NCBI GenBank assembly: GCA_007130855.1
Contig: SLRS01000158.1
Location: 1 to 35,226, forward strand
Reading direction: 5' to 3'
Length of the DNA: 35,226 bases
Source of the DNA: Trueperaceae bacterium
Lineage (GTDB): Bacteria; Deinococcota; Deinococci; Deinococcales; Trueperaceae
The notes beneath the pieces are model-generated. The model did no database searches, was not told the DNA's origin, and worked only from the letters and a program-made list of their open reading frames with translations. Numbering within the stretch: position 1 is the first letter of the stretch; each line of letters starts with the position of its first letter. This document shows, piece by piece, positions 68-28,861 of the stretch. The position numbers and the translations under genes were made by a program.

Positions 68-1189
68 ATGGCCAGCGCGCCATCCACCACCTACCGCAAA
101 CCCGGCTTCTGGCGCCGTCTGCGCCAGGGAAACCCGAGCGAGGCGCAACTGGGCTTCATCATGCTCATCCCAGCAGCGTTGGTATTGCTGCTCGTGATGT
201 TCTGGCCCATCGTCCAGGTGCTGTGGCAGAGTCTCCACTTCGAGCGCCTGAACCTGCCGGGGCACGGGCGACCCTTCATCGGGCTGGAGCACTACGAGCG
301 CATGCTGTGGGGCAGCGCCATGACCTGGGGCCTCGGCCACCTCGTGGCGTGGCGCCTCTTGGGCCTCGCCGCGCTGATCGCGCTCTGGATCGCCACAAGA
401 GCCGGGGCACTCCGACGCTCGACTGCGTGGTGGTGGACGCTCGGTATCCTGCTCGTCGCTGTCGGCCTCATGGGCTTCCACCCCGGCGATGACGGACGCT
501 GGAACGACGCTCGCTTCTGGAACAGCTTCTCGGTCACCCTCGTGATCATCGTCGCCAGCGTCGCAGGGTCGTTCGCGGTCGGCCTGCCACTGGCACTCTT
601 GGCCAACGTCACGTCGCGCTGGCGCTGGCTGGTCCGGGTAGCGTTGCTGATCCCTTGGGCCATGCCGCGCGTCTTGGTGGGCGTGATGTTCGCCTGGCTC
701 TTCAACAGCACCAGCGGCGTCATCAACGATCTCCTGCGGCGGATCGGGATCGAGGGTCCCTTGTGGTTGGCGCGCTCGGATCCCGCTGTATGGGCGACGA
801 TCATCACCATCGTCTGGGCCACGTCGGCCTTCGTGGGCCTGATCTTGCTGGCGGGCTTGCAGTCGATCGACGAGAGCCTCTACGAGGCTGCCGAGGTGGA
901 TGGCGCCAGCCCACTCCAACGCTTCGCAAGCATCACCCTGCCACTGCTACGTCCCGCCATCGCGGTGGCGCTGATCTTCCGTACGCTCACCGCCATCCAG
1001 ACCTTCGACATCCCCTATGCCATGACCCGCGGCGGCCCTGGGCGTACCCTCGAGACGCTCGGCATCTACATCACGAGCACCACCAACAACCTCAACCTCG
1101 GTTACGCCGCCGCTCTGTCGGTCGCCCTGTTCGCCATGAGCCTCGCCATCACCGTCCTCTACCTGCGCTGGATCTACACGGAGGACTGA
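68..1189 (+). CDS. Sugar ABC transporter permease, MalF/UgpA type, with extra membrane helices
   Basis: Inner-membrane subunit of a CUT1-family carbohydrate importer. The EAA loop that docks the ATPase lies at about residues 272-297 (LYEAAEVDGASPLQRF) and is followed by the usual conserved GGPGRTLET segment. Numbering is from ATG 68; an in-frame TTG at 38 would add ten residues but has no ribosome site, whereas GGACGG precedes ATG 68 by 5 nt. Residues about 84-137 hold two additional hydrophobic stretches (about 93-111 and 121-137) between the first helix and the conserved core, not typical of MalF/UgpA. The partner permease starts 1 nt after the stop. The binding protein is probably upstream, outside the window. 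The substrate is inferred only from the downstream isomerase, kinase and aldolase. Confidence 0.9.
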   Translation: MASAPSTTYRKPGFWRRLRQGNPSEAQLGFIMLIPAALVLLLVMFWPIVQVLWQSLHFERLNLPGHGRPFIGLEHYERMLWGSAMTWGLGHLVAWRLLGLAALIALWIATRAGALRRSTAWWWTLGILLVAVGLMGFHPGDDGRWNDARFWNSFSVTLVIIVASVAGSFAVGLPLALLANVTSRWRWLVRVALLIPWAMPRVLVGVMFAWLFNSTSGVINDLLRRIGIEGPLWLARSDPAVWATIITIVWATSAFVGLILLAGLQSIDESLYEAAEVDGASPLQRFASITLPLLRPAIAVALIFRTLTAIQTFDIPYAMTRGGPGRTLETLGIYITSTTNNLNLGYAAALSVALFAMSLAITVLYLRWIYTED

Positions 1190-1190
1190 C

Positions 1191-2108
1191 ATGCGCTCCC
1201 GGCGCCGCCCACTCACCCGCGCGCTCCTTGCCATCGGCACGCTGCTGCTGATCGCCAACGGCACCTTTCCCCTGTTGTGGATGATGCTTACCTCGCTCAA
1301 GGACGAGAACGAACTCATCCGCATGCCGATCACCTACGTGCCCGACGAGCCGACGCTGCGCAACTACGTGCAGGTCTTCGAGCAGCTACCCTTCGCGCGC
1401 TTCATGCTGAACTCGGCGGTCGTGTCGGTGAGCGCCACCATCGCCTGCGTGACCATCGCTGCGTTGGCCGGCTACGCCCTGGCGCGTCTGAACATGCCTT
1501 ATCGGCGGGCGATCCTCACGGCGATCGTCATGACCAGCATGTTCCCCGCGCTTGTCCTGCTCGTACCCCTCTACCGCGTGTTCCTGGGGGCCGAGATCCC
1601 CGTGGTCTCCCAGGTCGTTGCGTTCTTGCATGCGCTGGGCATGACGTTCGTGCCTGCAGACGTGCAAGGGCCCAACCTGCTCAACACCTACTGGGCGTTG
1701 ATCATCCCCTACGTGGCCTTGTCGCTGCCGATCGCCACGCTAATCCTGACGAGCTTCTTCCAGTTGATCCCCAAGGACCTCGAGAGCGCTGCGCTGGTGG
1801 ACGGCTGCACGCGCCTGCAGACCCTGGTCAAGGTGATCGCTCCCGTCTCGGCGCCAGGCATCGTGACGGCCGGCATCATCATCTTCGTCAACTCGTGGAA
1901 CGAGTTCCTGCTGGCCCTGAACTTCAACACCGCCATGACCATGCGCACGGTGCCGGTCGGGATCACCATGTACCAAGGGGAGTTCGCCTTCCCGTGGGCC
2001 GTCATCAGCGCTGCCATCACCATCGGCGTGCTACCACTGGTGGCGTTGATCCTCTTGTTCCAGCAGAAGATCATCGCCGGGCTCACCGCCGGCGGTGTGA
2101 AAGGATGA
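1191..2108 (+). CDS. Sugar ABC transporter permease, MalG type
   Basis: Second membrane subunit of the same CUT1 importer, 305 residues. It shows the MalG pattern: an N-terminal helix (about 11-34), a periplasmic segment, then five helices. The EAA loop reads LESAALVDGCTRLQ, and the typical C-terminal GLTAGGVKG is present. A periplasmic or loop insertion around VSQVVAFLHALGMTFVPADV between helices 3 and 4 makes it slightly longer than the usual 275-280 residues. It starts 1 nt after the MalF-type gene and its stop overlaps the isomerase start (ATGA at 2105-2108), so it is part of one translationally coupled operon. No ATPase gene is nearby. Confidence 0.93.
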   Translation: MRSRRRPLTRALLAIGTLLLIANGTFPLLWMMLTSLKDENELIRMPITYVPDEPTLRNYVQVFEQLPFARFMLNSAVVSVSATIACVTIAALAGYALARLNMPYRRAILTAIVMTSMFPALVLLVPLYRVFLGAEIPVVSQVVAFLHALGMTFVPADVQGPNLLNTYWALIIPYVALSLPIATLILTSFFQLIPKDLESAALVDGCTRLQTLVKVIAPVSAPGIVTAGIIIFVNSWNEFLLALNFNTAMTMRTVPVGITMYQGEFAFPWAVISAAITIGVLPLVALILLFQQKIIAGLTAGGVKG

Positions 2109-3559
2109 CGGTCATGCCGACCATCGCTCCACTGCGCGTCGGCTTCGCCGCGGTCGTGCGCGACGCGTTCAAGGGCGACGCGATGACGCTCACGAAGCGC
2201 GCGTCGGACGCCCTCGCGCGCGACGGGTCCGCACTCGGATACGACCTCGTTGCGGCAACCGAACGCGTCACCGACGCTGACGCCGCCCTCCGGGTGGGCG
2301 CCTGGGCGGCCTCGGCAGAGCTCGACTACCTGCTCGTGCTGCAGGCCACCTTCGCGACCGGCGAGGTGTTGGCGCCGCTCCTCAGGGCCGTTCCGCAAGT
2401 CGGGTTGTGGGCCGTGCCCGAAGCCGAAGGGCTGCCCCTGCGGCGCGCCGGCATCCGACCGGAAATGCGGCCGCTCCCGCTCAATAGCCTTTGCGGGCTG
2501 AATATGACGCTCTCGCTCCTCGACCACCCGGCCGTTGGCAAGGCGGAACGCGTCAAGTGGTACTGGGGCGCCCCGGGCAGCGAGGCGTTCGGCCGCCGTT
2601 GGCGGCCGACAGTGGCGTCGCTCAGAGGTATGCGGGCACTCGCGAATGCCCGCATCCTGCAGATCGGCGGCACGGCCCCGGCCTTCTACCGCCTCGAGGA
2701 GCGACCCGCGCTCCCCGGGGTGCACGTCGATACGATCCCCTTGGCCACACTGTATACGCGCATGGAGGCCGTCACCGACCATGACGCCATGATGCGGGCG
2801 AACGCGTGGCGTGCCAGCGAGCCCCTCCGCGGCGCCAGCGAGGCGCATGTCGCGGTCGCTGCCCGTACGGAGTTGGCGTTGGCCGCGCTAGCCGACGATG
2901 GCGCCTATCAGGCATTGGCCTTGCGCTGCTGGCCCGAGTTCGCCGACGCCTGCGGCGGGATGGCCTGCGCGGCGGTCGGCGCCATGGCCGACAGACTGCT
3001 ACCCACGGCGTGTGAAGGCGACGTCATGGGCGCATTGTCGATGCTGGCCCTGCAGGCCATCGCCGCCGCACCGAGCGCACTCTTGGACCTCTCGGATCTC
3101 GATGGCCGATACGACCGGCTGATGCTGTGGCATTGCGGCAATGCCCCCGCCGCCTTCTCCGGAAGGGCCGGCGCCCGCCTCACGACACACTTCAACCGCG
3201 ACGGTGTCGGGGTCGTTCGCGATATGCACCTCGCGGCGGGTCCCGCCACCGGCTTCCGGCTCCTGTCTGGTGGTGCTCGCGCCGTGATCATCAGCGGCAT
3301 CCTCGCCGAACCTGATGAGCCCGATGTCGACGGCGTGCGCGGCTGGCTGGGAACCTTGCGCTGGGATGGTGAGCCGCGTCGTGCCGCCGACGTCGTGGCG
3401 CAAGTGCTCGATGCCCGGCTCCCGCATCATCTGGCGCTCGTCGCAGGCGAGCACACCGAGGCAGTCCACGAGCTCGTGGTGCGTATCGGCGGAAGCGTCC
3501 TGCCGCCGGCGCGAGTGCGTGACGCCCTGGTCGCCGCTGTGGACATCGACCCCACGTGA
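2105..3559 (+). CDS. L-fucose/L-arabinose-isomerase-fold sugar isomerase
   Basis: Predicted Mn-dependent aldose-ketose isomerase of 484 residues. The C-terminal half carries the ligand pattern of the fucose/arabinose isomerase fold: Glu278 in CWPEF, Glu304/Asp306 in CEGDV, and His343 in WHCGN. The N-terminal half looks like the Rossmann-like substrate domain (for example YLLVLQATFATG at about 75-86). The start is ATG 2105 within the ATGA overlap with the permease stop; the same reading frame stays open far upstream but only as a shadow. It is followed by a kinase and an aldolase, so it should convert an imported aldose to the ketose that is then phosphorylated. Family members from other bacteria act on fucose, arabinose and, from memory, sulfoquinovose in non-YihS routes. 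The exact substrate is unknown. Confidence 0.8.
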   Translation: MTVMPTIAPLRVGFAAVVRDAFKGDAMTLTKRASDALARDGSALGYDLVAATERVTDADAALRVGAWAASAELDYLLVLQATFATGEVLAPLLRAVPQVGLWAVPEAEGLPLRRAGIRPEMRPLPLNSLCGLNMTLSLLDHPAVGKAERVKWYWGAPGSEAFGRRWRPTVASLRGMRALANARILQIGGTAPAFYRLEERPALPGVHVDTIPLATLYTRMEAVTDHDAMMRANAWRASEPLRGASEAHVAVAARTELALAALADDGAYQALALRCWPEFADACGGMACAAVGAMADRLLPTACEGDVMGALSMLALQAIAAAPSALLDLSDLDGRYDRLMLWHCGNAPAAFSGRAGARLTTHFNRDGVGVVRDMHLAAGPATGFRLLSGGARAVIISGILAEPDEPDVDGVRGWLGTLRWDGEPRRAADVVAQVLDARLPHHLALVAGEHTEAVHELVVRIGGSVLPPARVRDALVAAVDIDPT

Positions 3560-4473
3560 GCAGCGGCCTGCGCAGCACGATGGTGGGAGCGGTCGGCCTC
3601 GCCTGCCTCGACCACGTCTGGCACGTCGAGCGGTTCCCTCCCGAGTCCTCTCGGACCCATGCAAGCGCATACCGCGCGCACGGCGGCGGGCCAGCGGCTA
3701 CGGCGGCTGTCACGGCAGCGCGCCTGGGCGCTGAAGTGCACCTGTGGGCCTGCCTGGGCGACGATGCAGCCGGCCGCAGCCTCGCAGACGAGCTCGACGG
3801 CGAAGGCGTGCGCCTCCACGCAACGCGTGCCGGCGGGGCGCGCAGCTTCGTGAGCGCGGTCCTGGTCGACCCGCTGGGTGAGCGGCACATCTTCCCCTAT
3901 CGTGGCGATGGTCTGGTCGACGACCCAGCCCCCCTCGACTGGTCCGTCGTTCCGGCGGTGCAGGCGCTGTTGACCGACGCACGCCACCCACGGCTCTCGG
4001 CACATGCGCTGGCGCTGGCGCAGCGGCACGGCGTGCCGACGGTGGGTGACTGGAGCGACCTACGTCACTGGGAGCAGACCGCCGCGATCGATCATCTGAT
4101 CGTGTCCGAGGAGTGCGCCATCGCCGCGCTGGGCGAAACCGATCCGAGCACTGCCCTGGGTCGCCTCCGACAACGATGCGATCAGGTCGTCGCCGTCACC
4201 CTCGGCCCACGCGGTATCGTGTGGGACGCCGGCGAAGGCGTCAGGCGCAGTTCGGCGGCACGCGTCCAGGTAGTCGACAGCACGGGCGCGGGAGACGCCT
4301 TTCACGGGGCATACGCGTTCGCCATCGCGAGCGGCCGCAGCGTGCGCGCCGCGATGCGCTTGGCTAGCGCCGTCGGCGGCCTGGCCTGTACCGGACCGGG
4401 CCGTCGAGCCCTCCCCGACCTGGCGGCGGCCGAGCGGCTCGCCGCCACCTTGCCCGACGAGGAGCACGCATGA
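3556..4473 (+). CDS. PfkB-family sugar kinase resembling sulfofructose kinase YihV
   Basis: Ribokinase-family kinase of 305 residues, predicted to phosphorylate a ketose at C1 with ATP. The N-terminal motif GGGPAATA (43-50) followed by AARLGAEV matches E. coli YihV almost exactly, as recalled from memory. The PfkB C-terminal signature DSTGAGDAFHGA (241-252) carries the anion hole and catalytic Asp247. YihV residues reported to hold the sulfonate (Lys27, Asn109, Arg138, from memory) align here with Arg33, Pro114 and Arg143, so two basic residues are kept and the Asn is not. The start is GTG 3556, overlapping the isomerase stop as GTGA; ATG 3580 is a weaker alternative. The isomerase precedes it and the aldolase follows, which fits an EMP-like route for a sulfosugar or a related hexose. 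Confidence 0.85.
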   Translation: MSSGLRSTMVGAVGLACLDHVWHVERFPPESSRTHASAYRAHGGGPAATAAVTAARLGAEVHLWACLGDDAAGRSLADELDGEGVRLHATRAGGARSFVSAVLVDPLGERHIFPYRGDGLVDDPAPLDWSVVPAVQALLTDARHPRLSAHALALAQRHGVPTVGDWSDLRHWEQTAAIDHLIVSEECAIAALGETDPSTALGRLRQRCDQVVAVTLGPRGIVWDAGEGVRRSSAARVQVVDSTGAGDAFHGAYAFAIASGRSVRAAMRLASAVGGLACTGPGRRALPDLAAAERLAATLPDEEHA

Positions 4474-5567
4474 CCGAGGCCACCAGCGCGACCATTCCCT
4501 CTATGGCCAGCATGCCAGCCGGGACGTTGCGTGCGTTCATGACGCTCGCAGACGACAGTGGTCGATTCGGCATGATCGCCGTCGACCAACGACCACCGAT
4601 CTTCGCTGCGCTCGCCCGCCATGGCAACCGTCGACCAGAGGACGTCGAGTACGAAGAGGTGGCGGCCGTAAAGGGCGTCTTGTTGGAGGTCCTCGCGCCC
4701 GACGCAAGCGCGGTCCTGCTCGATCCTATCTGGGCGCATCCACACCATCTCCGCAAGGTTCCTGGTCACGTCGGGGTGCTCTCGACCCTCGAGGACCACG
4801 ACTTCACGCTCGCGGATGGGGAGCGGCGCTCTCACGCGATACCTGGCTGGTCGGTGGCCAAGATCAAGCGCTCCGGTGCGCAGGGGGTGAAGGTCCTGGC
4901 ATGGTATCGGCCCGACGTGTCGACCGCCACCCGCGATCACCAGGACGCCTTCGTCGCCGAGGTCGGCCGCGAGTGCCGCGAGCACGAGCTTCCCTTCGTG
5001 CTGGAGCTCCTCACCTACCCGTTGCCCGGTGAGGACCCTAACGGCAGTGACTACGCCCGAGCGAAGCCGCAGCGGGTGCTCGATTCGGTGAGGCACTTCG
5101 GTGACTCGCACTTCGGCGTCGACCTGTTCAAGCTCGAGTTCCCCGCTGAGCTCAAGGCGGCCGAAGAGTTCGCTGCCGGCGCCTTCGACGGCCGGTGCCG
5201 CGAGGCGGTGTACGCCCTCGACGAGGTGCGCGCCAGCCTGGCCGAACTCGACGAAGCCTCGCCCGTGCCGTGGGTCTTACTCTCGGCGGGCGTTGGCCCG
5301 CATGAGTTCGCGTTCAACCTCGAGCTCGCCTGTCTCGCCGGCGCCAGTGGCTTCCTGGCCGGACGCGCGGTCTGGTACGACGCGCTCGAGGCGTACCCAG
5401 ACCTGGACGCGATCCGCGAGCGCTTGCGAAGCGTCAGCCTGCCTTACCTACGATCCCTCCGCGCGCTCGCTCAGCGTGGCCGACCCTGGACCGCCCACCG
5501 GCGATACGAGGGTGCCATTGCGATCGAAGGTGCCGGTCCCAGCTGGTACGCGGAGTACGGGGCATGA
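4470..5567 (+). CDS. Class I aldolase, LacD/YihT (tagatose-bisphosphate / sulfofructose-phosphate aldolase) family
   Basis: Predicted Schiff-base aldolase cleaving a ketose 1-phosphate (or bisphosphate) into DHAP and an aldehyde. Visible family features are the N-terminal GMIAVDQRPP (34-43), the Schiff-base lysine Lys221 in VDLFKLEFP, and the phosphate/sulfonate-site strand WVLLSAGV (268-275, Ser272) with GFLAGRAVW (Arg299). At 365 residues it is longer than YihT (about 290) and LacD (about 325), owing to a C-terminal extension after about residue 335. It overlaps the kinase stop (ATGA). The central KIKRSGAQGVKVLAWYRPD stretch is closer to LacD than to YihT, so tagatose- or fructose-type substrates remain possible. 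Confidence 0.85.
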   Translation: MTEATSATIPSMASMPAGTLRAFMTLADDSGRFGMIAVDQRPPIFAALARHGNRRPEDVEYEEVAAVKGVLLEVLAPDASAVLLDPIWAHPHHLRKVPGHVGVLSTLEDHDFTLADGERRSHAIPGWSVAKIKRSGAQGVKVLAWYRPDVSTATRDHQDAFVAEVGRECREHELPFVLELLTYPLPGEDPNGSDYARAKPQRVLDSVRHFGDSHFGVDLFKLEFPAELKAAEEFAAGAFDGRCREAVYALDEVRASLAELDEASPVPWVLLSAGVGPHEFAFNLELACLAGASGFLAGRAVWYDALEAYPDLDAIRERLRSVSLPYLRSLRALAQRGRPWTAHRRYEGAIAIEGAGPSWYAEYGA

Positions 5568-6664
5568 GCGCCGACGTCGATCAACTCGCCGCACCGATGC
5601 GACGGAGCAGCGACGGCCAGCCACCGCCGGATGCCGTGGAGGGGCCGCAGCTCGTCGTCGCCGTCATCGGGGCAGGTGACATGGGCGCGCGGCACGCGCA
5701 GCACTGGCGCTCGCTGGGCGCTCGGGTCGCGGCCGTGGTCGACCCGGACTTCGAGCGCGCCAAGGCGACCGCCGCGCGCGTCGGCGCTCGTGCCGACACC
5801 GACGCCAGCGGCGCGCTCGCCGATCCGAGCGTGCACGTCGTCTCGGTGTGTACCCCGACCTACCTGCACGCCGGCTTCACGGTGGCGGCGCTGGACGCGG
5901 GGAAGCACGTGCTGTGCGAGAAGCCGGCGGCCTTGACGCTGACCGACGCCAGAGCGATGGAGAGCGCCGCACAGCGCTCCGGCAAGGAGTTGCGCATCGG
6001 TTTCATGCGGCGGTTCGACCCTGCCTACCAGCCGCTGATGGAGTACACCGGGCGCGCAGGCCGCCCACTGTTGGCTCAGGCCACAATCACCGCCGGCGTG
6101 CGACCGAAACGGTTGATGCACGACGCACTGGTCAATGGTGGACCGATTATCGACATGTGCTGCCACGTGTTCAACCTGTGGGACCGCATGTTCGCGGGCG
6201 AGCCGGTGGCGGTCAGTGCCCGTGGATACACCTTCTCGCACGACAAGCCCGAGGTCGCCGGCATCGCGCAGCGGGCGCTGGACAGCGCGCTCATCACGCT
6301 GGAGTACGCCGACGGCTCGGTGGGCCAGATCCAGGTGTCGTGGGGGCTTCCGGCGGGGATCGAACCCGTGGAGCGCCACAACTACGTGGGGCCGGCGGGA
6401 TTGGTAACGGTCGACTGGAACCAGCACCTCGCGCTCCGTGACGCCAGCGGCGTGACCCGTTGGCGCAGCCGGGGGGTCGACCCCTGGCGGGCACAGATCG
6501 AGCAGTTCAACCGTGAGATCCGCGAGGGCGCGCCGCGCGAGGTCGCCGGCATCGCGGCGGGGACCGCGGCGCTCCGCGTGTCGCTCGCGGTGCTCGAGGC
6601 CATTCGCACGCAGCGCGTGGTCGCGCCTGCCGAGGTCGCCGACGTGGAGGCGATCCAGCCATGA
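5564..6664 (+). CDS. Gfo/Idh/MocA-family NAD(P)-dependent oxidoreductase (first of two)
   Basis: 366-residue member of the glucose-fructose oxidoreductase / inositol dehydrogenase family. The Rossmann dinucleotide site GAGDMG lies at 36-41, the catalytic-site lysine motif CEKPAA at 118-123, and the conserved DxxxH segment (GGPIIDMCCHVFNLW, Asp197/His201) in the C-terminal beta-sheet domain. An N-terminal stretch of about 28 residues precedes the Rossmann fold. It overlaps the aldolase stop by ATGA. In this context it could oxidise a sugar carbon or act as an NAD-dependent glycosidase. From memory, families of this fold such as GH109 and GH188 work that way, and GH188 releases sulfoquinovose from its glycosides. 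Specificity cannot be read from the sequence. Confidence 0.88.
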   Translation: MSADVDQLAAPMRRSSDGQPPPDAVEGPQLVVAVIGAGDMGARHAQHWRSLGARVAAVVDPDFERAKATAARVGARADTDASGALADPSVHVVSVCTPTYLHAGFTVAALDAGKHVLCEKPAALTLTDARAMESAAQRSGKELRIGFMRRFDPAYQPLMEYTGRAGRPLLAQATITAGVRPKRLMHDALVNGGPIIDMCCHVFNLWDRMFAGEPVAVSARGYTFSHDKPEVAGIAQRALDSALITLEYADGSVGQIQVSWGLPAGIEPVERHNYVGPAGLVTVDWNQHLALRDASGVTRWRSRGVDPWRAQIEQFNREIREGAPREVAGIAAGTAALRVSLAVLEAIRTQRVVAPAEVADVEAIQP

Positions 6665-7776
6665 ACAGCGGCGAGCCGGCAGGGCCCGGACCGTTGCGCA
6701 TCCGTGGCGACGCCGCCGAACTGGAGACGAAGCGAGCGCGCTTGATCGCGCGCAGCGAGGCACGGGGTGCGGGGGCGATGGTGGTCCGACGAGCCGACAC
6801 GCTCGCTTGGCTGCTTGGCGGTGCGGACGTGCTGGTCAGCCGTCAGGCCGGACCCGTTGTCGAGGCCGTCGTGCATGCGACCGGTGTCGAGATCGTGACG
6901 AATCGGATCGAGTCCGAGCGGCTGCGGAAGGAGGAGCTGCCCGACGGCTGTAACCTCCATGCCGTACCCTGGGAAGAGCCTGGCGCGCTTCGCATACGCA
7001 GCCATGCAATCGCGCGCGCCGCGAGCCCGAGCGGCGACATCGTCGACGACGGCGAAGTCGACGTCACCGACGCCCGCTGGCCGCTTCTAGACGTCGAGGT
7101 CGAGCGGCTGCGAGCCGCCGGCCGCGTCACCGCGACGACACTCACCGACGTCATCGCCGGGCTCGAGCCGGACCTGAGTGAGCATGCCGCCGCCGGGCGC
7201 GCGATCGGCGCCCTGCGCTCACGAGGGCTGCACGTACCGGTGGTGCTGGTCGCGGGAGCCTCGCGGTTCGGCAGCGTGCGGCATCCGGTCCCGACCCATG
7301 CGCCGCTGGGGGCTGCGGCCTTGGTCGTCGTCTGCAGCGAGGCGCGCGGCCTCGTCAACTCGACCTCGCGGATCGTGCAGTTCGGTGTCCAACCTGGCCC
7401 GATCGCGGAACGTCTGGCGCAGGTGCTGCAAGTAGAGTCCGCGATGCTGACGGCGACACGGCCCGACGCCAGACTCGAGGATGTGTTGGGCGCCGCCCGG
7501 ACGGCATACACCGCCGTCGGGCACCCCGAGGCCTGGCGCGACCATCACCAGGGCGGGCCGATCGGATACCGACCGCGCGAGTGGTTGGTGACCCCCGGCG
7601 ACCAGCGCCCCCTGCTCCGCGGCGCCGCCTACGCGTGGAACCCGTCGCTGCCGTGGGCGAAGGCCGAGGATACCTTCTTCCTGAGCGAGTCCGGCCTGGA
7701 GAACGTCACTTGGGACGATCGTTGGCCGAGCCTCATGATCGACGGTCGCGCCCGCGCCGACGTGTTGAGGCTGTGA
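6661..7776 (+). CDS. M24 'pita-bread' protein, probably catalytically dead as a metallopeptidase
   Basis: 371-residue homologue of the Xaa-Pro aminopeptidase/creatinase family, of a subgroup often seen in sugar-catabolic operons. The C-terminal motif HHQGGPIGYRPREW (295-308) matches the family's His-x-Gly-x-Gly-Ile-Gly region, and AEDTF (335-339) matches the region of the first Glu ligand. The strands that should carry the two Asp metal ligands instead read VVVCSEARGLVNSTS (222-236), with no DxG or DxxR pattern. A normal dinuclear metal centre therefore looks impossible. The N-terminal half resembles the usual non-catalytic domain. ATGA and GTGA overlaps join it to both oxidoreductases, implying a role in the same pathway. 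Its function is unknown. Confidence 0.75.
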   Translation: MNSGEPAGPGPLRIRGDAAELETKRARLIARSEARGAGAMVVRRADTLAWLLGGADVLVSRQAGPVVEAVVHATGVEIVTNRIESERLRKEELPDGCNLHAVPWEEPGALRIRSHAIARAASPSGDIVDDGEVDVTDARWPLLDVEVERLRAAGRVTATTLTDVIAGLEPDLSEHAAAGRAIGALRSRGLHVPVVLVAGASRFGSVRHPVPTHAPLGAAALVVVCSEARGLVNSTSRIVQFGVQPGPIAERLAQVLQVESAMLTATRPDARLEDVLGAARTAYTAVGHPEAWRDHHQGGPIGYRPREWLVTPGDQRPLLRGAAYAWNPSLPWAKAEDTFFLSESGLENVTWDDRWPSLMIDGRARADVLRL

Positions 7777-8828
7777 GCCCCACCGTCGTCGAGCGCGCCG
7801 CCGGCGACACGTGGCCCCTGGGCATCGCACTCGTTGGCGCAGGCCGTTGGGCCGACATGCACCGACGTTCCCTCACTCGCGGTGGCGCCAGACTCATCGC
7901 CGTGGCCACGGGCAGCCAGGCCTCGAGCGACCGGGTGCAGGCCGAGTGGGGTGTCCCAGCGACACCGGACCTCGGCCAGGTGCTCGCGATCCCCGCGGTG
8001 GAAGCGGTCATCATCGCCAGCCCCAATGACCTGCACGCACCCCAAGCCATGGCCGCACTCGCGGCTGGAAAACACGTCCTGGTCGAGAAGCCCATGGCGA
8101 TCGACGTCGCCTCGGCCCGTAGGGTCGTGGCTGCGGCCGCGGCGAGCGCAGGTGTGGTCGCGGTCGGCCTCGAGATGCGGACGTTCCAGCTCTTCGAACG
8201 AGTGAAGACGCTGCTGCTCGATGAGACACTGGGAAGGCCCATCCACCTGGCGCTGGATCTGTTCCGTCGCCCCTACCGGGCCGGCTCGGGCGGTTGGAAG
8301 CAGGATCCGGCGCGGCTCGGCCCGGTGGTGCTCGAAGAGGCGATCCATTACCTCGACCTCGCCCGCTGGTACCTGGGCGACATGGTCTCGCTGGAATCGT
8401 GGGCGCGATCGCGTCCCGGCCGAGAACGGTTTCGCGAGCAACTCGACGTGCGGATCGAGAGCGAAGCGGGGGCGATCGGACTCGTGACGCGCAGCATCGC
8501 TGCCGGCGGTCATACGGTCGACCTACGGTTGGTGGGTGAGCGAGCCGCTGCCCGGGCGCTGTGGCGCGGTCGCATGGATGCCGACCCTCGGCCTAGCGTG
8601 CGGCTGGAGCTCCACGACAGACACGGCAGCCGGCTACTCCCGATCAGCGCCGCCACCGGCCACGCCTTCGATCTGTGGCGTCAGACGGCGGCGTTCGTGC
8701 GGGCGGCGCGCACGGGAACAGACGCTCCTGCAACGGCTGATGACGGCCTGAAATCGGTTGCACTCAGCCTGGCCGTCGAGCGCTCGCTGGCGACCGGAGC
8801 GCCCGTCGATCCGCGAACACTCGCCTGA
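7773..8828 (+). CDS. Gfo/Idh/MocA-family NAD(P)-dependent oxidoreductase (second)
   Basis: 351 residues from GTG 7773, which overlaps the preceding stop as GTGA; the frame is open further upstream but only as a shadow of the M24 gene. It has the Rossmann motif VGAGRWADMH (21-30), VEKPM at 104-108, and EEAIHYLDLARWYLGD from about 188, with His192 where the family keeps its catalytic His. It is clearly distinct from the first oxidoreductase (MVEKPM against CEKPAA and a different C-terminal domain), so the two are not a recent duplication. It is the last gene of the operon, 4 nt before a hairpin. It probably catalyses another redox step on the sugar or on the aldehyde released by the aldolase; the substrate is unknown. 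Confidence 0.87.
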   Translation: MSPTVVERAAGDTWPLGIALVGAGRWADMHRRSLTRGGARLIAVATGSQASSDRVQAEWGVPATPDLGQVLAIPAVEAVIIASPNDLHAPQAMAALAAGKHVLVEKPMAIDVASARRVVAAAAASAGVVAVGLEMRTFQLFERVKTLLLDETLGRPIHLALDLFRRPYRAGSGGWKQDPARLGPVVLEEAIHYLDLARWYLGDMVSLESWARSRPGRERFREQLDVRIESEAGAIGLVTRSIAAGGHTVDLRLVGERAAARALWRGRMDADPRPSVRLELHDRHGSRLLPISAATGHAFDLWRQTAAFVRAARTGTDAPATADDGLKSVALSLAVERSLATGAPVDPRTLA

Positions 8829-8831
8829 TTC

Positions 8832-8860
8832 GCCGCGCTGCCCGCTTGCCTCAGCGCGGC
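8832..8860. terminator. Hairpin between convergent genes
   Basis: Perfect 9-bp inverted repeat GCCGCGCTG (8832-8840) and CAGCGCGGC (8852-8860) with an 11-nt loop. It begins just after the plus-strand stop and spans the stop of the convergent dehydrogenase gene. No T tract follows in either direction, so intrinsic termination is only likely, not certain. Confidence 0.5.
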
Positions 8861-9804
8861 GCCGGCGTGCGTGAGCGCTCACCTCGCAAGACGCGCAAGA
8901 CTTCCTCCACCGCATGGGCGGATGCGCGCGCATTGGCCTGGTGCGTCACCCCAGCGACGTGCGGCGTGAGGATCAGGTTCGGGCACCCGGCCAACGGGTC
9001 GGGCGAGGCCGGTGGCTCGCCGCGCCGGACGTCGAGTGCCGCACCGCCGAGCTGCCCGGAGCGAAGGGCCTCCGCGATGGCCTCTTCGTCGACCAGCTCT
9101 CCCCGCGCGGTATTGACCAAGACAGCTCCGCGCGGCATCTGCGCGAGCGCAGCGGCGTCGATCAGGTCGCGGGTGGTCGGCAGCAGCGGCACGTGCAACG
9201 TCAGCGCGTCGGCACGTCCGAGCAACTCCTCGAGGGTGACGAGTTCGATGGCGTACTCCTGCACCGCCTGGGTGCTCTGGTGGACGAACGGATCGACGGC
9301 AAGAAGCTGCATGCGGAGTGCCAGCGCACGACGCGCGACACGTGCCCCGATATCACCGAGCCCCACGATGCCCAGAGTCGAACCGGCCACCTCGCTCCCC
9401 ATGAAGGCCTGCCGCTGCCAACCGCCTCCCCTGACGTGGCTGGTCGCGGCCTCGAAACGCCGGCGGAGCGCGATGACCGCGCCGATGACGTACTCGGCGA
9501 CGCTGGTGGCGTTGGTCCCCGGAGCCCACGACACGATCACGTCGCGTTCTTCGGCTGCCGCGACGTCGATCCGTTCGAGCCCGACGCCGACACGGCCGAT
9601 GACGCGCAGGCGCGGCGCGGCGTCCAACAACTCGCTGTCGACATGGGTCAGATTACGCACCAGGAGTGCCTCGGCATCGACCAGTGCCGCCAGCAATCGC
9701 GGTCTATCGGCATGCAAGTCGGGGTCGACAACGACCTCATGCCGCTCACGCAACCGCTCGAGGGCGGCACCGTCGACCCATTCCGAAACCACGACTCGAG
9801 CCAC
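8851..9804 (-). CDS. D-2-hydroxyacid dehydrogenase (phosphoglycerate-dehydrogenase-like)
   Basis: NAD-dependent dehydrogenase of 317 residues. The coenzyme motif is GLGDIG (148-153). The catalytic triad residues are Arg234 in NTARGELVD, Glu263 in RRGEPP and His282 in LTPHVAG, all in expected spacing. There is no C-terminal ACT domain, so it is not a standard SerA. It starts at GTG 9804 with a consensus AGGAGG at 9811-9816 (minus strand), 6 nt upstream. It converges on the sugar operon. It may reduce or oxidise a 2-hydroxyacid (glyoxylate, hydroxypyruvate, lactate or a pathway product), but the sequence does not fix the substrate. Confidence 0.9.
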   Translation of the reverse strand: MARVVVSEWVDGAALERLRERHEVVVDPDLHADRPRLLAALVDAEALLVRNLTHVDSELLDAAPRLRVIGRVGVGLERIDVAAAEERDVIVSWAPGTNATSVAEYVIGAVIALRRRFEAATSHVRGGGWQRQAFMGSEVAGSTLGIVGLGDIGARVARRALALRMQLLAVDPFVHQSTQAVQEYAIELVTLEELLGRADALTLHVPLLPTTRDLIDAAALAQMPRGAVLVNTARGELVDEEAIAEALRSGQLGGAALDVRRGEPPASPDPLAGCPNLILTPHVAGVTHQANARASAHAVEEVLRVLRGERSRTPAPR

Positions 9805-10688: not shown

Positions 10689-12194
10689 ATGCAGCGACAC
10701 GTGCGTTGGCTCCTGAGCGCCGTCCTCACCTTCGGCTGGGCCGGCTGTGCCCTCGCACAGCAGGAAGGCCCGACGCCTGGGGGCAGCCTCGTGGTAGCGA
10801 TCAGCGCCGATCCGCCCGGCTGGGATCCAACCCTCAGCACCTCGCAGGAGATCCCGCGAGTAACGTACGGCAACGTGTTCGAGGGCCTCGTGCGCTTCGA
10901 TCGCCACGGCACGATCGTGCCAGCCCTGGCAACCGCATGGACGGTCTCGGACGACGGCTTGGTGTGGACCTTCACGCTACGCGACGACGTGCGGTTCCAT
11001 GACGGGAGCCCACTCACCGTCGCCGACGTGATGGCCAAGTTCGAGCGGGCCCGCGACCCGGACAGCGGTCACGTCAACCAGCAGTACTACGAGGCCATCG
11101 CGTCGGTCGAGTCCCCTGACCCGAGCATCGTGACCTTCTCGCTCACCCGGCCCAACCGCAGCTTGCTGTACAACCTGGCGCGTCCCGACTCGATCATCTA
11201 CCCCGCTGCTAGTGCAGCAACGCAGCGGAGCCAACCGATCGGCACGGGCCCGTTCCGCTTCGCTCGATACGTCGAGGGCAGCGAGGTTCGGCTCGAGCGC
11301 TTCGAGGACTACTGGAATCCCGAGCTCCCACACCTGGAAACCGTCACGTTCCGCATCATCAGTGACCCCAACACCCGCTTGGCAGCACTCCAGGCCGGCG
11401 ACATCGACCTGATCGGCGCCGCCGTTCCGCCGGAGCACGTCGGGGTGATCGACGCAACCCCCGGGCTCGAAACGCATGCTGGCACTGCTACGACCGAGAT
11501 CACGGTCGCCATGAACAATGCCCGACCCCCATTCGACGATCCGCGCGTTCGGCAGGCGATCACCCATGCCATCGACAAGGAAGCGATCGTTCGCGGGGCG
11601 TTCTTCGGGCAGGGCACTGTTATCGGAACCCACATGACGCCGGCCGAGCCGTACTACCTCGACCTGACGGACTTGTACGCGTTCGATCCGGAGCGAGCCC
11701 GCGCGCTCTTGGCCGAGGCCGGATACGCCGATGGCCTCAGCGTCACGTTCGAGCTCCCGGAGCCTTATCCATTCGAACGCCGCACCGGCGAGGTCATCGC
11801 GCAGCAGTTGCGCGAGGTGGGCATCACCGTGAACCTCGCTGTCGTCGAGTGGGGCACCTGGATCCAGCGGATCTTCCTAGGCGCCGATTACGACATGACG
11901 ATCATCGGCCACGCCGAGCCACGCGACATCAACATCTACGCGAATCCCGACTACTACTTCCGGTACGACAACCCTCGCATCGCCGAACTCTTGGCCGAGG
12001 CGGAGGCGGCCCGGAGCGCCGAGACCGAGCTCGAGGCCTACCAGGAGATTGCACGGATCATCGCCGAGGATGCAGTCAACGTGTGGGTCTTCAGCCCTGC
12101 CAACACCGTGGCCGTGCGCGAAGGGTTGCGCGGTTTCTGGATCGACCAGCCCACGCCGGCCATCGATGTGACCGAGGTCTTCTGGGCGCCCTGA
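10689..12194 (+). CDS. ABC transporter substrate-binding protein, family 5 (Dpp/Opp/Nik type)
   Basis: 501-residue extracytoplasmic solute-binding protein. It has a signal peptide (basic MQRHVR, hydrophobic core, cleavage after CALA, about residue 26). Typical family-5 motifs follow: GGSLVVAISADPPGWDPT, the VYGNVFEGLVRFD-like segment, DDVRFHDGSPLTVADV, and PFDDPRVRQAITHAIDK. ATG 10689 is preceded by GGAGG (10678-10682) with 6 nt spacing; an in-frame TTG at 10683 has no such site. Permeases follow at 12241 and 13182. Ligand class (peptide, nickel, glycoside or other) is not readable. The mature protein begins with Gln, so it is not an obvious lipoprotein. Confidence 0.9.
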   Translation: MQRHVRWLLSAVLTFGWAGCALAQQEGPTPGGSLVVAISADPPGWDPTLSTSQEIPRVTYGNVFEGLVRFDRHGTIVPALATAWTVSDDGLVWTFTLRDDVRFHDGSPLTVADVMAKFERARDPDSGHVNQQYYEAIASVESPDPSIVTFSLTRPNRSLLYNLARPDSIIYPAASAATQRSQPIGTGPFRFARYVEGSEVRLERFEDYWNPELPHLETVTFRIISDPNTRLAALQAGDIDLIGAAVPPEHVGVIDATPGLETHAGTATTEITVAMNNARPPFDDPRVRQAITHAIDKEAIVRGAFFGQGTVIGTHMTPAEPYYLDLTDLYAFDPERARALLAEAGYADGLSVTFELPEPYPFERRTGEVIAQQLREVGITVNLAVVEWGTWIQRIFLGADYDMTIIGHAEPRDINIYANPDYYFRYDNPRIAELLAEAEAARSAETELEAYQEIARIIAEDAVNVWVFSPANTVAVREGLRGFWIDQPTPAIDVTEVFWAP

Positions 12195-12240
12195 GCGCCC
12201 GACTTGCTGGCGCCGGGCGTCAGCGGAGTACCACCGCACC

Positions 12241-13185
12241 ATGACCGCCTTCGTCGTCAGGCGCCTGATCACGGCACTCGTCAGCATCGTGCTCGCGAGC
12301 GCAGTCGTGTTCGCAGCGGTGCTGGCGGTACCCGGTGACCCGGCCGCCATCATCCTCGGAGTCACGGCTTCTCCGGAAGCCCTCAGCGCCCTGCGCACGC
12401 AACTGGGCCTGGACGTGCCGCCTGTGGAACGCTACGGCCGCTGGCTCGCACGTCTCGTGCGGGGCGACCTGGGGACCTCGCTGCAGTTCCAGCGGCCGGT
12501 GGCGGACCTGGTAAGAGACCGGCTCATGTTGTCGGTGGCCCTCGCACTCGGGGCAGCGCTGGTGGCGACCTCGTTGGCGATCCCGCTTGGCGTGCTGGCA
12601 GCCGTACGCCGCGGCACCTGGCTCGACCCGCTGACCGTGCTCGCCTCGCAGCTGGGGGCAGCGGTCCCCTCGTTCTGGCTGGGCCTCCTCCTGATCATCC
12701 TCTTCGCCGTGGAGTTGCGGTGGCTCCCGGCGGGCGGTTTCCCGGGCTGGGAGGCTGGGCCCGTGGCCGCGTTTCGGGCGCTTCTGCTGCCGGTCCTGGC
12801 GCTCGGGTTGGGGCAGGCCGCCGTGATGACGCGGATGACGCGCGCGGTGCTCCTGGACGTGCTACGTCAGGATTACGTGCGCACGGCACGTGCCAAGGGG
12901 CTGGGATCGACCAGCGTGATCGGCAAGCACGCCTTGCGTAACGCGATGGTCACCCTCGTAACGATGCTGGGCCTGTCACTCACGAACGTGTTCATCGGCT
13001 CCATCGTGATCGAGCAAGTGTTCGCGCTGCCGGGCCTGGGGCGACTTGCGCTCTCGGCCATCGGCAACCGAGACTTTCCACTCGTACAGGGCGTGGTGTT
13101 GCTCTACGCCGGCACGATCGTGTTCGTCAGCTTCGTTGTCGACGTCTCCTACGGCTGGCTCGACCCGCGCATCCGGTACGCATGA
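12241..13185 (+). CDS. ABC transporter permease, DppB/OppB type
   Basis: 314-residue inner-membrane permease with six helices. The N-terminal helix and periplasmic segment are followed by the family motif for the ATPase-contact loop (DYVRTARAKGLGSTSVIGKHALRNA) and the terminal DPRIRYA found in nearly all DppB homologues. It starts 46 nt after the binding-protein stop and overlaps the DppC-type gene by ATGA at 13182-13185. A weak 6-bp hairpin (12196-12201 with 12214-12219) lies between it and the binding-protein gene. Confidence 0.93.
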   Translation: MTAFVVRRLITALVSIVLASAVVFAAVLAVPGDPAAIILGVTASPEALSALRTQLGLDVPPVERYGRWLARLVRGDLGTSLQFQRPVADLVRDRLMLSVALALGAALVATSLAIPLGVLAAVRRGTWLDPLTVLASQLGAAVPSFWLGLLLIILFAVELRWLPAGGFPGWEAGPVAAFRALLLPVLALGLGQAAVMTRMTRAVLLDVLRQDYVRTARAKGLGSTSVIGKHALRNAMVTLVTMLGLSLTNVFIGSIVIEQVFALPGLGRLALSAIGNRDFPLVQGVVLLYAGTIVFVSFVVDVSYGWLDPRIRYA

Positions 13186-13997
13186 GACGGCGGCCGCCCC
13201 TCAGCCTGGTGATGGGCTCGACGCTCGTGGGCCTGGTCGCGGCAGCGGCAGCGCTTTCATTGGTATGGCTCCCCGTCGACCCGAATCGAATGGACTTCGG
13301 TGCCCAGTTCTCGCCACCCGGCGTTGAGCACTGGCTGGGCACCGATCACTTCGGTCGCGACCTGTTCTCGCGCGTCTTGGTGGGGGCTCGCTCGGCACTC
13401 CTCGTCGGCTTCGTGGCCGTCGGCATCTCGCTCTCGCTCGGTTGTGTACTCGGCGCGCTCGCCGGCTGGCGCGGTGGCGCCGCTGATGAGCTGATCATGC
13501 GACTCGTCGACGTGCTCTACGCCTTTCCGGCGATCCTCATGGCGCTCCTCCTGGCTGCCGTATACCAACCCGGAACCGTCACGGCCATGGCCGCGATCGG
13601 GCTGGCCACGGTACCGGTGTTCGCCCGGCTGATGCGGGCATCGGTGCTGACGCTGCGTGGCCGCGACTACGTGGAGGCGGGGCGGGCGCTCGGGGCCAGT
13701 GAACCGCGGCTATTGTGGGCCCACGTGCTCCCTGGTGCCGCGTCGCCGATCGTCGTCCAGGCGTCGTTGTCCCTCGCGATCGCCGTCCTCGCCGAGGCGG
13801 CCCTGTCGTTCCTCGGCCTCGGCACGCCGCCGGACGTGCCTTCGTGGGGGAACATGTTGCGCGAGGCCCAGGGGTTCATGGCCCTCTCGCCTTTTCCCGC
13901 CCTCGTCCCTGGGCTGGCCATCATCCTCACCGTGCTGGGATGGAGCCTGCTCGGCGACGGTCTGCGCGACCATCTCGATCCGACCACCCGTCGTTGA
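13182..13997 (+). CDS. ABC transporter permease, DppC/OppC type
   Basis: 271-residue partner permease. It carries the DppC hallmark HWLGTDHFGRDLFSRVLVGAR, the ATPase-contact loop DYVEAGRALGASEPRLLWAHVLP, and the ALSFLGLGTPPDVPSWG segment. The N-terminus is short, with a single helix before the GTD motif. It is translationally coupled to the DppB-type gene. The expected ATPase genes (DppD/DppF) do not follow; an unrelated exonuclease gene starts 43 nt later. The ATPases must be encoded elsewhere. Confidence 0.93.
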   Translation: MRRRPPLSLVMGSTLVGLVAAAAALSLVWLPVDPNRMDFGAQFSPPGVEHWLGTDHFGRDLFSRVLVGARSALLVGFVAVGISLSLGCVLGALAGWRGGAADELIMRLVDVLYAFPAILMALLLAAVYQPGTVTAMAAIGLATVPVFARLMRASVLTLRGRDYVEAGRALGASEPRLLWAHVLPGAASPIVVQASLSLAIAVLAEAALSFLGLGTPPDVPSWGNMLREAQGFMALSPFPALVPGLAIILTVLGWSLLGDGLRDHLDPTTRR

Positions 13998-15800: not shown

Positions 15801-17147
15801 ATGCCGAGGTTCACGTCATCCTTTGCCCGCGCGCTACGCACCTCGCTCTTGGCGTCACTGTTAGCGCTCTTCGCCATCGCCCACGCCCAGCCCACCGAGA
15901 TCCAGATGTGGTACGCGCTCACGGGAGCACTCGGTGAGCACACCCTGGAGCAGGTCGAGGACTTCAACGCCTCGCAGGACCAGTACCGGGTGGTCGCCGA
16001 CTTCTCCGGTACCTACGATGAGACGATGGTCGCTGCCATCGCCGCCTTCCGCGCTGGCACCGCGCCGCACATCGTCCAGATGTTCGAGGTCGGCACGGCC
16101 ACCATGATGTACGCGGAGGGCGCCATCAAGCCAGTCCACGAGCTCTTCGCGGAGACAGGCGTACCGTTCGACCCCGACGTCTTCTTGCCCGCGGTCAGGG
16201 GCTACTACAGCCTGCCCGATGGCCGCATGATGTCGATGCCGTTCAACAGCTCCACAGCCGTGATGTGGGTCAACGACGACGCTCTCGAGGCAGCCGGCAT
16301 CGACCCGGCGACGGTGTCGCTGGAGACCTGGGAAGAGGTGCGCGAGGTCGCGCGGCAAGTGGTCGACGAGGGCGGAGCGGACTGCGGCTTCTCGATGGCA
16401 TGGCCCACCTGGACCCAGTTCGAGCAGTTCAGCGCCGTGCATGACATCCCGCTCGCATCATTGTCGAACGGCCTCGAGGGGCTCGGCGCCGAGATGCTGA
16501 TCGACAGTGACCTGCACGTCCAACACGTCCAGAACCTGATCGACATGTCGGCCGAAGGCTCGTTCATGTACGGCGGCCGCGGCAACGCCGGCGACACGCT
16601 CTTCGTCTCGGGCGAGTGTGCCATCGTGCAGGGCTCCTCGGCCCTCATCGCCCGCGTGAACCGCGAGGCGGAGTTCGACTGGACCATGCACATGCTCCCG
16701 TACTACGAAGGCACCCCGAACGCGCCGCTGAACTCGATCATCGGCGGGGCGAGCTTCTGGATCATGCAGGGTCCCGACCGCTCGGACGAGGAGTGGCAAG
16801 GCGTCGCCGAGTTCTTCGCCTTCCTCACCACCGTCGAACAGGCCCAGAAGTGGCACGTCGACACCGGCTACCTGCCGATCCGCTTCGGGATCTACGAAGA
16901 GCTCGAAGTCGAAGGCTTCTACGACGAGAACCCAGGCCTCGACATCCCTTACCTCCAACTCACCCGTGGAGAAGCGACCGACAACTCGCGGGGCCTGAGG
17001 CTCGGCAACATGCCTCAGATCCGCGCCATCATCGAAGAGGAGTTCGAGATCGCCTTGGAGGGCCAGCAGTCGGCCGAGCAGGCAATGAACAACGCCGTCG
17101 AACGCAGCAACGTCGTGTTGCGAGCCTTCGAGCGGGCGAACCGCTAG
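15801..17147 (+). CDS. ugpB: sn-Glycerol-3-phosphate-type ABC substrate-binding protein UgpB
   Basis: 448-residue periplasmic binding protein closely following E. coli UgpB in recalled alignment. Shared segments are VGTATMMYAEGAIKPV (about residues 92-107), SMPFNSSTAVMW, NSIIGGASFWIMQGPD, WHVDTGYLPI and GLRLGNMPQIRAI. The signal peptide ends near AHAQ (residue 29). ATG 15801 has AAAGGAG (15788-15794) 6 nt upstream. Known UgpB proteins capture glycerol-3-phosphate and glycerophosphodiesters such as glycerophosphocholine. A strong hairpin and then the permeases ugpA and ugpE follow, so this is a phospholipid-headgroup or phosphate-scavenging importer. No Pho box was recognised. Confidence 0.93.
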   Translation: MPRFTSSFARALRTSLLASLLALFAIAHAQPTEIQMWYALTGALGEHTLEQVEDFNASQDQYRVVADFSGTYDETMVAAIAAFRAGTAPHIVQMFEVGTATMMYAEGAIKPVHELFAETGVPFDPDVFLPAVRGYYSLPDGRMMSMPFNSSTAVMWVNDDALEAAGIDPATVSLETWEEVREVARQVVDEGGADCGFSMAWPTWTQFEQFSAVHDIPLASLSNGLEGLGAEMLIDSDLHVQHVQNLIDMSAEGSFMYGGRGNAGDTLFVSGECAIVQGSSALIARVNREAEFDWTMHMLPYYEGTPNAPLNSIIGGASFWIMQGPDRSDEEWQGVAEFFAFLTTVEQAQKWHVDTGYLPIRFGIYEELEVEGFYDENPGLDIPYLQLTRGEATDNSRGLRLGNMPQIRAIIEEEFEIALEGQQSAEQAMNNAVERSNVVLRAFERANR

Positions 17148-17160
17148 CCATCACGCCACA

Positions 17161-17188
17161 GGGGGCGCCGGGTCGACCCGGCGCCCCC
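17161..17188 (+). terminator. Strong hairpin between ugpB and ugpA
   Basis: Perfect 12-bp stem GGGGGCGCCGGG (17161-17172) and CCCGGCGCCCCC (17177-17188) with a TCGA tetraloop. The whole 28 nt is palindromic. It begins 14 nt after the ugpB stop and there is no T tract. It probably acts as a partial terminator or as a 3' stabiliser giving excess binding-protein mRNA. Confidence 0.6.
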
Positions 17189-17243
17189 GAATCCTAGCGT
17201 CCCGCATCGACCAGGACGCGCCCGTGGTTCGCGAAGGGGATCC

Positions 17244-18125
17244 ATGCGACGGCGCACTCTCTTCCGCAACAAACTGCTCCCCTTCCTCTTGCTCGCGCCC
17301 CAGCTGGCCATCACCATCGCCTTCTTCTTCTGGCCCGCCGGTCAAGCGATCTACCAGTCCCTGTTGATCGAGGACCCGTTCGGGCTACGGACCGAGTTCG
17401 TATGGCTCGAGAACTTCCAGATCGTCCTCTCGAACCCGCTCTACCTGGAGGCGGTACGCGTCACCGTCATCTTCTCGACCGCCGTGACGCTGCTCGCCAT
17501 GGCGCCCGCGCTGCTGCTCGCGGTGATGGCCGATCAGGTCATCCGCGGTGCCACCGGCTATCGCACGTTGATCGTCTGGCCGTACGCCATCGCGCCGGCG
17601 GTCGCCGCCGTGCTGTGGCTCTTCATCTTCCACCCGAATATCGGGACGATCGGCCAAGGCCTGCGTGCCATGGGTTTCGCTTGGGACTACCGGCTGCACG
17701 GTGATCAGGCCCTGGTGCTCACCATCTTCGTTTCGGCCTGGAAACAGGTCAGCTACAACTTCCTGTTCTTCCTCGCGGGCTTGCAGTCGATCCCCAAGAC
17801 GATCATCGAGGCGGCCGCCATCGACGGCGCGTCGCCCATGCGGCGTTTCTGGCAGGTGATCTTCCCGCTGCTCTCGCCAACCACCTTCTTCCTGCTCGTC
17901 GTCAACATCATCTACTCCTTCTTCGACACCTTCGGCGTGATCCATGCCATCACCCAAGGCGGTCCCGGCCGCGCCACCACCACACTGATGTACCGGCTCT
18001 ACCGCGACGGCTGGGTCAACCTCGACCTCGGCGGCTCGTCCGCCCAATCGGTGATCTTGATGGCGGCCGTGATCGGGCTCACCGTGATCCAGTTCCGTTA
18101 CATCGAACGGCGGGTGCATTACTGA
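17244..18125 (+). CDS. ugpA: Glycerol-3-phosphate ABC transporter permease UgpA
   Basis: 293-residue CUT1 permease with six helices. The EAA loop is [20 protein letters not shown], and the UgpA-type segments [14 protein letters not shown] and [15 protein letters not shown] are present. The start ATG 17244 has AAGGGGA (17234-17240) upstream with 3 nt spacing, somewhat tight, but the N-terminus fits homologues. It lies between ugpB and ugpE; the stop TGA and the ugpE ATG share one base (TGATG). Confidence 0.93.
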
Positions 18126-21372: not shown

Positions 21373-21595
21373 CGGGAAGGGGCTCTAGGTACTGGCTGAT
21401 GAGCTCGAGGTTGGCGGCGGCATCCTCAGGGGAGATCTTGTCGATTGCGAAGCCCGCGTGGACCACCACCCAATCCCCTGCCTTCAACTCGTCGACCAAC
21501 CCGATGAAGCAGTGATGCATCGCGCCGCCAAGGCGGATCAGGCAACGATCCTCATCGAGCACCTCGACGACTTCGTGTGGAATCCCCAAGCACAT
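21365..21595 (-). CDS. hypC: Hydrogenase maturation chaperone HypC
   Basis: 76-residue HypC/HybG chaperone that binds HypD and escorts the iron unit to the large subunit. The start is fixed by the family rule MCLGIP, with Cys2 exposed after Met removal: ATG 21595. An in-frame TTG two codons upstream would bury the Cys. GGGAGG lies 6 nt upstream of this ATG, inside the end of hypF. The barrel core (VDELKAGDWVVVHAGFAI) and the helical tail are intact. It lies 2 nt after the hypF stop. Confidence 0.96.
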   Translation of the reverse strand: MCLGIPHEVVEVLDEDRCLIRLGGAMHHCFIGLVDELKAGDWVVVHAGFAIDKISPEDAAANLELISQYLEPLPGG

Positions 21596-21597
21596 GG

Positions 21598-23901: not shown

Positions 23902-23905
23902 GCCC

Positions 23906-28101: not shown

Positions 28102-28113
28102 CCCGTACGGTGC

Positions 28114-28143
28114 GTGACGACTTGGCGTGCGTTGCGGTACCGT
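28114..28143 (+). promoter_or_regulatory. Possible promoter of the carbonic anhydrase gene
   Basis: GTGACG (28114-28119), an 18-bp spacer and TACCGT (28138-28143), 9 nt before ATG 28153. The transcript would have a leader of only a few nt. A GAGG at 28145-28148 could instead serve a longer transcript from dinB. Confidence 0.3.
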
Positions 28144-28152
28144 TGAGGCGCG

Positions 28153-28803: not shown

Positions 28804-28834
28804 GCGACGCTGACACCACGACGCCGATGCGTTC

Positions 28835-28861
28835 GCCAGACGTCAGCGAGCGCCGTCTGGC
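28835..28861. terminator. Hairpin between convergent carbonic anhydrase and TlpA-like genes
   Basis: Perfect 8-bp stem GCCAGACG (28835-28842) and CGTCTGGC (28854-28861) with an 11-nt loop that contains the stop codon of the minus-strand gene. The geometry is the same as at 8832-8860. No T tract. Confidence 0.45.

Follow-up and report, generated by a model that had tools for sequence, protein, structure and literature searches.

Which sugar does a bacterium consume when it couples a sugar importer to an isomerase, a kinase, an aldolase and two Gfo/Idh/MocA-type oxidoreductases in one operon? The question is raised by positions 68-8828 of a 35,226-nucleotide stretch of Trueperaceae DNA (contig SLRS01000158.1; the window), which is the entire contig C70 of a 287-contig metagenome-assembled genome (MAG) that is 89% complete. 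We consider it likely, on the basis of sequence comparison, that this operon imports and degrades sulfoquinovose (SQ), or an SQ glycerol glycoside, by a hybrid sulfoglycolytic Embden-Meyerhof-Parnas (sulfo-EMP) route in a soda-lake relative of Deinococcus. The reading is built on gene content, homology, conserved linkage, co-occurrence and residue conservation, from which we infer each reaction, which substrate is preferred, what becomes of the sulfonate and what the three last gene products do. SQ, a sugar that contains sulfur, is abundant in plant and algal lipids and belongs to the largest pools of organic sulfur, its annual production amounting to 10 billion tons (PMC10755693).

The operon comprises eight genes on the + strand, the seven junctions of which consist of one 1-nt gap and six 4-nt overlaps. 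Their order recurs in many Trueperaceae MAGs, and hence is not a chance arrangement of open reading frames. A preliminary description had proposed a tightly coupled sulfosugar operon of the isomerase-kinase-aldolase type in a genome of Deinococcota. Coordinates, strand and junctions were all confirmed, and the relatives found (Trueperaceae, Meiothermus, Calidithermus) agree with the proposed origin. The seven genes named in this description are present, with an eighth one, encoding an M24-fold protein between both Gfo/Idh genes (6661-7776), having been omitted.

The first two genes encode ABC sugar permeases, permA (68..1189, +; BPD_transp_1, PF00528) and permB (1191..2108, +; PF00528). Position 1 of the window is a contig end, and a binding protein had been suspected upstream of it. 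A candidate was found on contig C130 of the same MAG (28,943 bases), which ends within the gene of a substrate-binding protein (SBP; 27721-28941), preceded by LacI and Xer. In the relative L032 (= L166) the order Xer-LacI-SBP-permA-permB-isomerase (ISO)-kinase (KIN) is unbroken; the C130 SBP is 86-88% identical to the SBP of L032, permA is 84% identical to the permease adjoining it, and permB is 87% identical to its L032 counterpart. No base overlap between the end of C130 and the start of C70 was found, and we place the two contigs next to each other because of the truncated SBP of C130 and the synteny with L032.

The C130 SBP is 40% identical to the sulfoquinovosyl-glycerol binding protein SmoF (334 bits, phmmer); two other SBPs of the window and the SBPs of sulfofucose-like and other sugar clusters match SmoF with at most 62 bits. 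SmoF is also the best match of the L032 SBP in the PDB (341 bits; runner-up 223), and the operon SBPs of Calidithermus and Deinococcus peraridilitoris are 49% and 47% identical to it. Of the positions that we take to be ligand contacts of SmoF (Q12, H13, S43, Q46, D113, G166, T220, R345), the C130 protein keeps all except H13, which is Q. The importer is thus of SmoF type, with its permeases at the start of C70, and is predicted from these sequences to bind SQ-glycerol; it would bring SQ or the SQ glycerol glycoside into the cell. It differs from the Agrobacterium importer (sulfo-SMO pathway) in that it would feed an isomerase-kinase-aldolase route, whereas the latter serves a monooxygenase.

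The isomerase ISO (2105..3559, +) may be described as a divergent SqvD/SftI-like member of the L-arabinose/L-fucose isomerase fold. Its sole match in NCBIfam is NF048012, sulfoquinovose isomerase (86 bits, E 1.9e-24), and its orthologues match this model solely or best, with 46-139 bits in Deinococcota and one Armatimonadota MAG, and with 127-273 bits in clostridia. ISO displays no Pfam match, including the YihS-type PF07221, and a sequence search of the PDB with ISO returned no match. The AlphaFold2 model (pLDDT 90.7) leads in Foldseek to arabinose and fucose isomerases with TM scores of 0.70-0.79. This bears out the earlier view of a non-YihS isomerase with a fucose isomerase fold. Residues E278, E304, D306, H441 and H442 are invariant across 23 sequences and plausibly act as metal ligands. 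ISO would convert SQ to sulfofructose.

The PfkB kinase KIN (3556..4473, +; PF00294) has its best PDB match in 7ag6, the sulfofructose kinase YihV of E. coli (155 bits; next 111). In the tree it is placed with YihV and with Cereibacter, Shinella and other kinases (91/82, the inner node being moderately supported), outside RbsK (88/73), KdgK/YdjH and LacC/PfkB. Arg138 of YihV, presumably a sulfonate contact, is present in every operon kinase and is missing from LacC, PfkB, KdgK, YdjH and RbsK. The tree and this residue place KIN on the YihV side, as had been supposed; KIN would phosphorylate sulfofructose at C1.

The aldolase ALD (4470..5567, +) is a class I enzyme of the DeoC/LacD type. It belongs to PRK12858, the tagatose-1,6-bisphosphate aldolase subfamily, with 317 bits and above cut-off, and in the tree a 100/100 split separates it, together with LacD, from the YihT, Arthrobacter and Cereibacter aldolases; its neighbours are Shinella and Rhizobium proteins and PDB 8tnf. 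ALD was therefore rejected as a YihT orthologue, and of the LacD/YihT likeness noted before, only the LacD half stands. Clustering of both kinase and aldolase with tagatose/fructose enzymes had been named beforehand as a ground for abandoning the sulfosugar reading; with ALD on the LacD side, such clustering is found for one of the two. Being grouped with LacD, and being neither YihT nor SqiA, ALD would turn the sulfo-EMP route into a hybrid that relies on a third type of aldolase, which may cleave sulfofructose-1-phosphate to sulfolactaldehyde and dihydroxyacetone phosphate, the latter entering glycolysis.

Described sulfo-EMP pathways involve YihS/YihV/YihT, those of the sulfo-EMP2 type SqvD/SqiK/SqiA, and hybrids are known as well (PMC9594981, PMC12890257), including one of Vibrio with SqiA (PMC13372026). 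With sulfo-EMP of E. coli (yih) and Arthrobacter the window shares the logic of isomerase, kinase and class I aldolase and a YihV-like kinase with Arg138; it differs in the non-YihS isomerase, an aldolase of LacD type outside the YihT/Arthrobacter/Cereibacter clade, the ABC importer, and the lack of YihU, YihO and YihP within the window. With sulfo-EMP2 of Bacillus urumqiensis and Megamonas it shares the fold of an SqvD-type isomerase and a match to its family, the latter far below the equivalog cut-off, whereas its kinase is PfkB (PF00294) instead of SqiK (PF00365) and its aldolase belongs to PF01791 instead of PF01116 (SqiA). The hybrids of Vibrio and Yersiniaceae (PMC13372026, PMC9594981) likewise mix isozymes of both routes, but swap in SqvD or SqiA, whereas here a LacD-type aldolase is involved, and in Deinococcota. 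The set of SqvD-like, YihV-like and LacD-type proteins matches none of the described sulfo-EMP, sulfo-EMP2 or hybrid sets.

Relatives display the same core in a conserved context. A scan of 111 genomes of the phylum found ISO homologues in 51, and a separate scan of named genome contigs identified carriers among Meiothermus, Calidithermus, Thermaceae and Trueperaceae MAGs and one Armatimonadota MAG; the survey of gene context covers loci other than the low-GC clostridial ones, in which the gene caller missed genes. In Thermaceae the order is GntR / SuyA-SuyB-SlcC-ComC-SBP-permA-permB-ISO-KIN-ALD. The SuyB-like protein has a counterpart with 62% identity in a Rhodococcus cluster containing SuyA, an aldehyde dehydrogenase, and SlcC-like and ComC-like genes, and the best NCBIfam model of the ComC-like gene is L-sulfolactate dehydrogenase (218 bits, cut-off 500). 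SuyB orthologues (at least 63% identity) occur in 26 of the 111 genomes, all 26 of which carry ISO (hypergeometric p = 1.6e-11, a value that ignores phylogeny); in genus g30, comprising 27 genomes, G063 is the sole genome with SuyB or ISO. SqgA homologues (38-39%) are encoded on the contig that carries ISO in the majority of Thermaceae, as a rule no more than about 17 kb away, and those checked keep all seven SQ contacts of this NAD-dependent sulfoquinovosidase. GH31 takes the place of SqgA in G004, G063, G072 and D. peraridilitoris, the last having the order M24-GabD / GntR / SBP-perm-perm-ISO-KIN-ALD-GH31, and in G072 a GabD-like gene is located at the end of the operon. These sulfolactate genes, together with the SmoF-type SBP, the NF048012 match, the position of KIN and its Arg138, strongly support the earlier proposal of a sulfosugar operon.

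The GH31 proteins of these operons were also considered as classical YihQ sulfoquinovosidases and rejected, being alpha-xylosidase-like and lacking Q288 and W304. The Armatimonadota MAG locus L176 displays a GntR / SuyA-SuyB-GabD-SBP-perm-perm-ISO-GH31 cluster, which suggests that the route extends beyond Deinococcota. A Spirochaetales MAG (L184) has an ISO homologue (26%) beside a YihQ-like GH31 (44-46%), an SqgA-like protein and ABC permeases, possibly a further sulfosugar cluster. In the Trueperaceae genome G098 (contig C3, L138), a SuyA-SuyB pair (71% to Rhodococcus SuyB) occurs with a different 2-hydroxyacid dehydrogenase and a Gfo gene, apart from the ISO operon of this genome.

The fate of the C3 sulfonate appears to differ between these relatives and the window. 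Sulfolactaldehyde would be oxidised to sulfolactate, which SlcC, ComC and SuyAB of Thermaceae may turn into pyruvate and sulfite. The gene set of their operons matches the sulfolactate mineralisation of Chromohalobacter and Paracoccus; the genus of the window differs in having an SlcC-like gene alone. This gene, encoding a 2-hydroxyacid dehydrogenase (8851..9804, -; PF02826), is convergent with the operon, 22 nt from its last gene, and its product is a candidate (S)-sulfolactate dehydrogenase, with 49% identity to the SlcC-like gene of the Calidithermus operon, 42% to the Rhodococcus sulfolactate-cluster gene and 33% to E. coli SerA. Neither a sulfolactaldehyde reductase or dehydrogenase nor a sulfonate exporter was found within the window, as had been remarked before. 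The genome itself encodes a general protein similar to succinate semialdehyde dehydrogenase (53% to D. peraridilitoris GabD); a search for SuyB gives only a UxaA-type protein (29%), and ComC and a close SqgA were not found in this MAG at its completeness of 89%. Cleavage of the sulfonate by Xsc was discarded, with no genome of the phylum scan above the Xsc cut-off. In the genus of the window the C3 sulfonate would probably be excreted or re-routed.

Several observations weigh against SQ degradation by this operon. The 86 bits of ISO are far under the SqvD equivalog cut-off of 700. Two positions of YihV that presumably contact the sulfonate are changed in the operon kinases, K27 to R and N109 to P or R. 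ALD falls in with LacD and with the aldolases of clusters that probably serve sulfofucose. In D. peraridilitoris, the GH31 encoded in the operon has neither Q288 nor W304 of YihQ. A sulfolactaldehyde dehydrogenase, an exporter of sulfonates, and SuyB, ComC, Xsc or SqgA were found neither in the window nor, clearly, in its genome.

It may be asked next what the remaining genes contribute, namely GFO1 (5564..6664, +; PF01408), the M24-fold protein (6661..7776, +; PF00557, E 5.5e-7) and GFO2 (7773..8828, +), which probably free SQ from glycosides or pre-process these. The Gfo/Idh proteins had been likened to GH188, the family of SqgA, whose contacts to SQ are K107, Y136, R166, K172, E189, H193 and H321 (PMC10755693). 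The likeness holds as to the fold and, for GFO2, as to five of the seven contacts (K107, R166, E189, H193, H321), with Y136 and K172 missing; GFO1 keeps two of the seven. It does not extend to membership: GFO2 scores 82 bits against the SqgA profile, inside the range of unrelated paralogues (up to 92), and its best Foldseek matches are anhydrofructose reductase and glucose-fructose oxidoreductase, with SqgA ranking 38th and lower, which is why GFO2 is not filed as GH188, and both proteins were ruled out as members on score. In the M24-fold protein three of the five canonical ligands of the metal site D-D-H-E-E, namely the two Asp and one of the Glu, are replaced, as in all orthologues checked, including that of D. 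peraridilitoris.

A first alternative leaves the core route intact and concerns the substrate, which would be a modified SQ glycoside, with GFO1, the M24-fold protein and GFO2 providing a new oxidoreductive release step in place of GH188 and GH31. In G089, GFO1 and GFO2 stand beside a SmoF-like transporter without ISO, KIN and ALD, whereas in G096 and G097 an SqgA-like gene adjoins such a transporter, and the comparison of these arrangements suggests a role of GFO1 and GFO2 in glycoside release. Moreover, the combination of R166 and E189, also with H321, is found in GFO2 and in none of the other 20 Gfo proteins that this genome encodes. Against this stand the profile score and Foldseek rank given above, the missing Y136 and K172, and a contact loop modelled partly with low confidence. 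We regard this alternative as possible, with less than an even chance of being correct, and GFO2 as a candidate sulfoquinovosidase-like enzyme that may depend on NAD. The more specific proposal, that GFO1, the M24-fold protein and GFO2 of Trueperaceae form a new oxidoreductive sulfoquinovosidase system replacing GH31/GH188, within a Deinococcota SQ pathway that uses a third class of aldolase, appears rather doubtful and is offered tentatively.

A second alternative replaces the substrate by another sulfosugar such as sulfofucose (6-sulfo-D-galactose), from which ISO would produce sulfotagatose, KIN sulfotagatose-1-phosphate, and the LacD-type aldolase would cleave the latter. It draws on the grouping of ALD with LacD and with proteins of Shinella and Rhizobium clusters resembling the sulfofucose cluster of P. 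wurundjeri (short-chain dehydrogenase/reductase, enolase-type dehydratase, GabD, TSUP). The P. wurundjeri cluster contains a PF00294/PF01791 pair, a role of which on sulfotagatose was proposed, but both proteins were uninduced on sulfofucose (PMC12421959). Furthermore, the operon SBPs resemble SmoF (40-49% identity), with which that of Shinella shares 23%; the Thermaceae operons are located near SqgA homologues that keep each of the seven contacts to SQ, and the sole family match of ISO is an SQ isomerase. This alternative seems improbable to us. That the operon serves a plain, unsulfonated hexose or deoxy-sugar (tagatose, fuculose or similar), as the PRK12858 assignment of ALD, the fucose/arabinose isomerase fold, the two Gfo/Idh genes and a window without a sulfonate export gene could suggest, is very improbable in view of the SmoF-type SBP, the YihV-type kinase with Arg138 and the sulfolactate genes recurring within the Thermaceae operon.

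Other genes of the window surround the operon. A peptide/nickel-type ABC transporter (SBP of family 5 and two permeases) adjoins it at 10689-13997, and two more sugar-type ABC importers, each comprising an SBP and two permeases, are located at 15849-18970 and 31020-34942, with SBPs that are not SmoF-like. A run of genes on the - strand (19134-24972) displays N-termini resembling the NiFe-hydrogenase maturation proteins HypE, D, C, F, B and A; structural genes of a hydrogenase were not noticed in the window.

In the literature searched, which scarcely covers subscription papers, no report of SQ or sulfolactate catabolism in Deinococcota was found. Surveys demanding at least 30% identity, such as PMC13372026, can miss divergent isomerases. 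Degradation of SQ by the operon described here would place the breakdown of this sugar in Deinococcota, with Meiothermus and Calidithermus apparently mineralising it completely. Since cultured strains of Meiothermus, Calidithermus and D. peraridilitoris carry the operon, this claim is directly testable.

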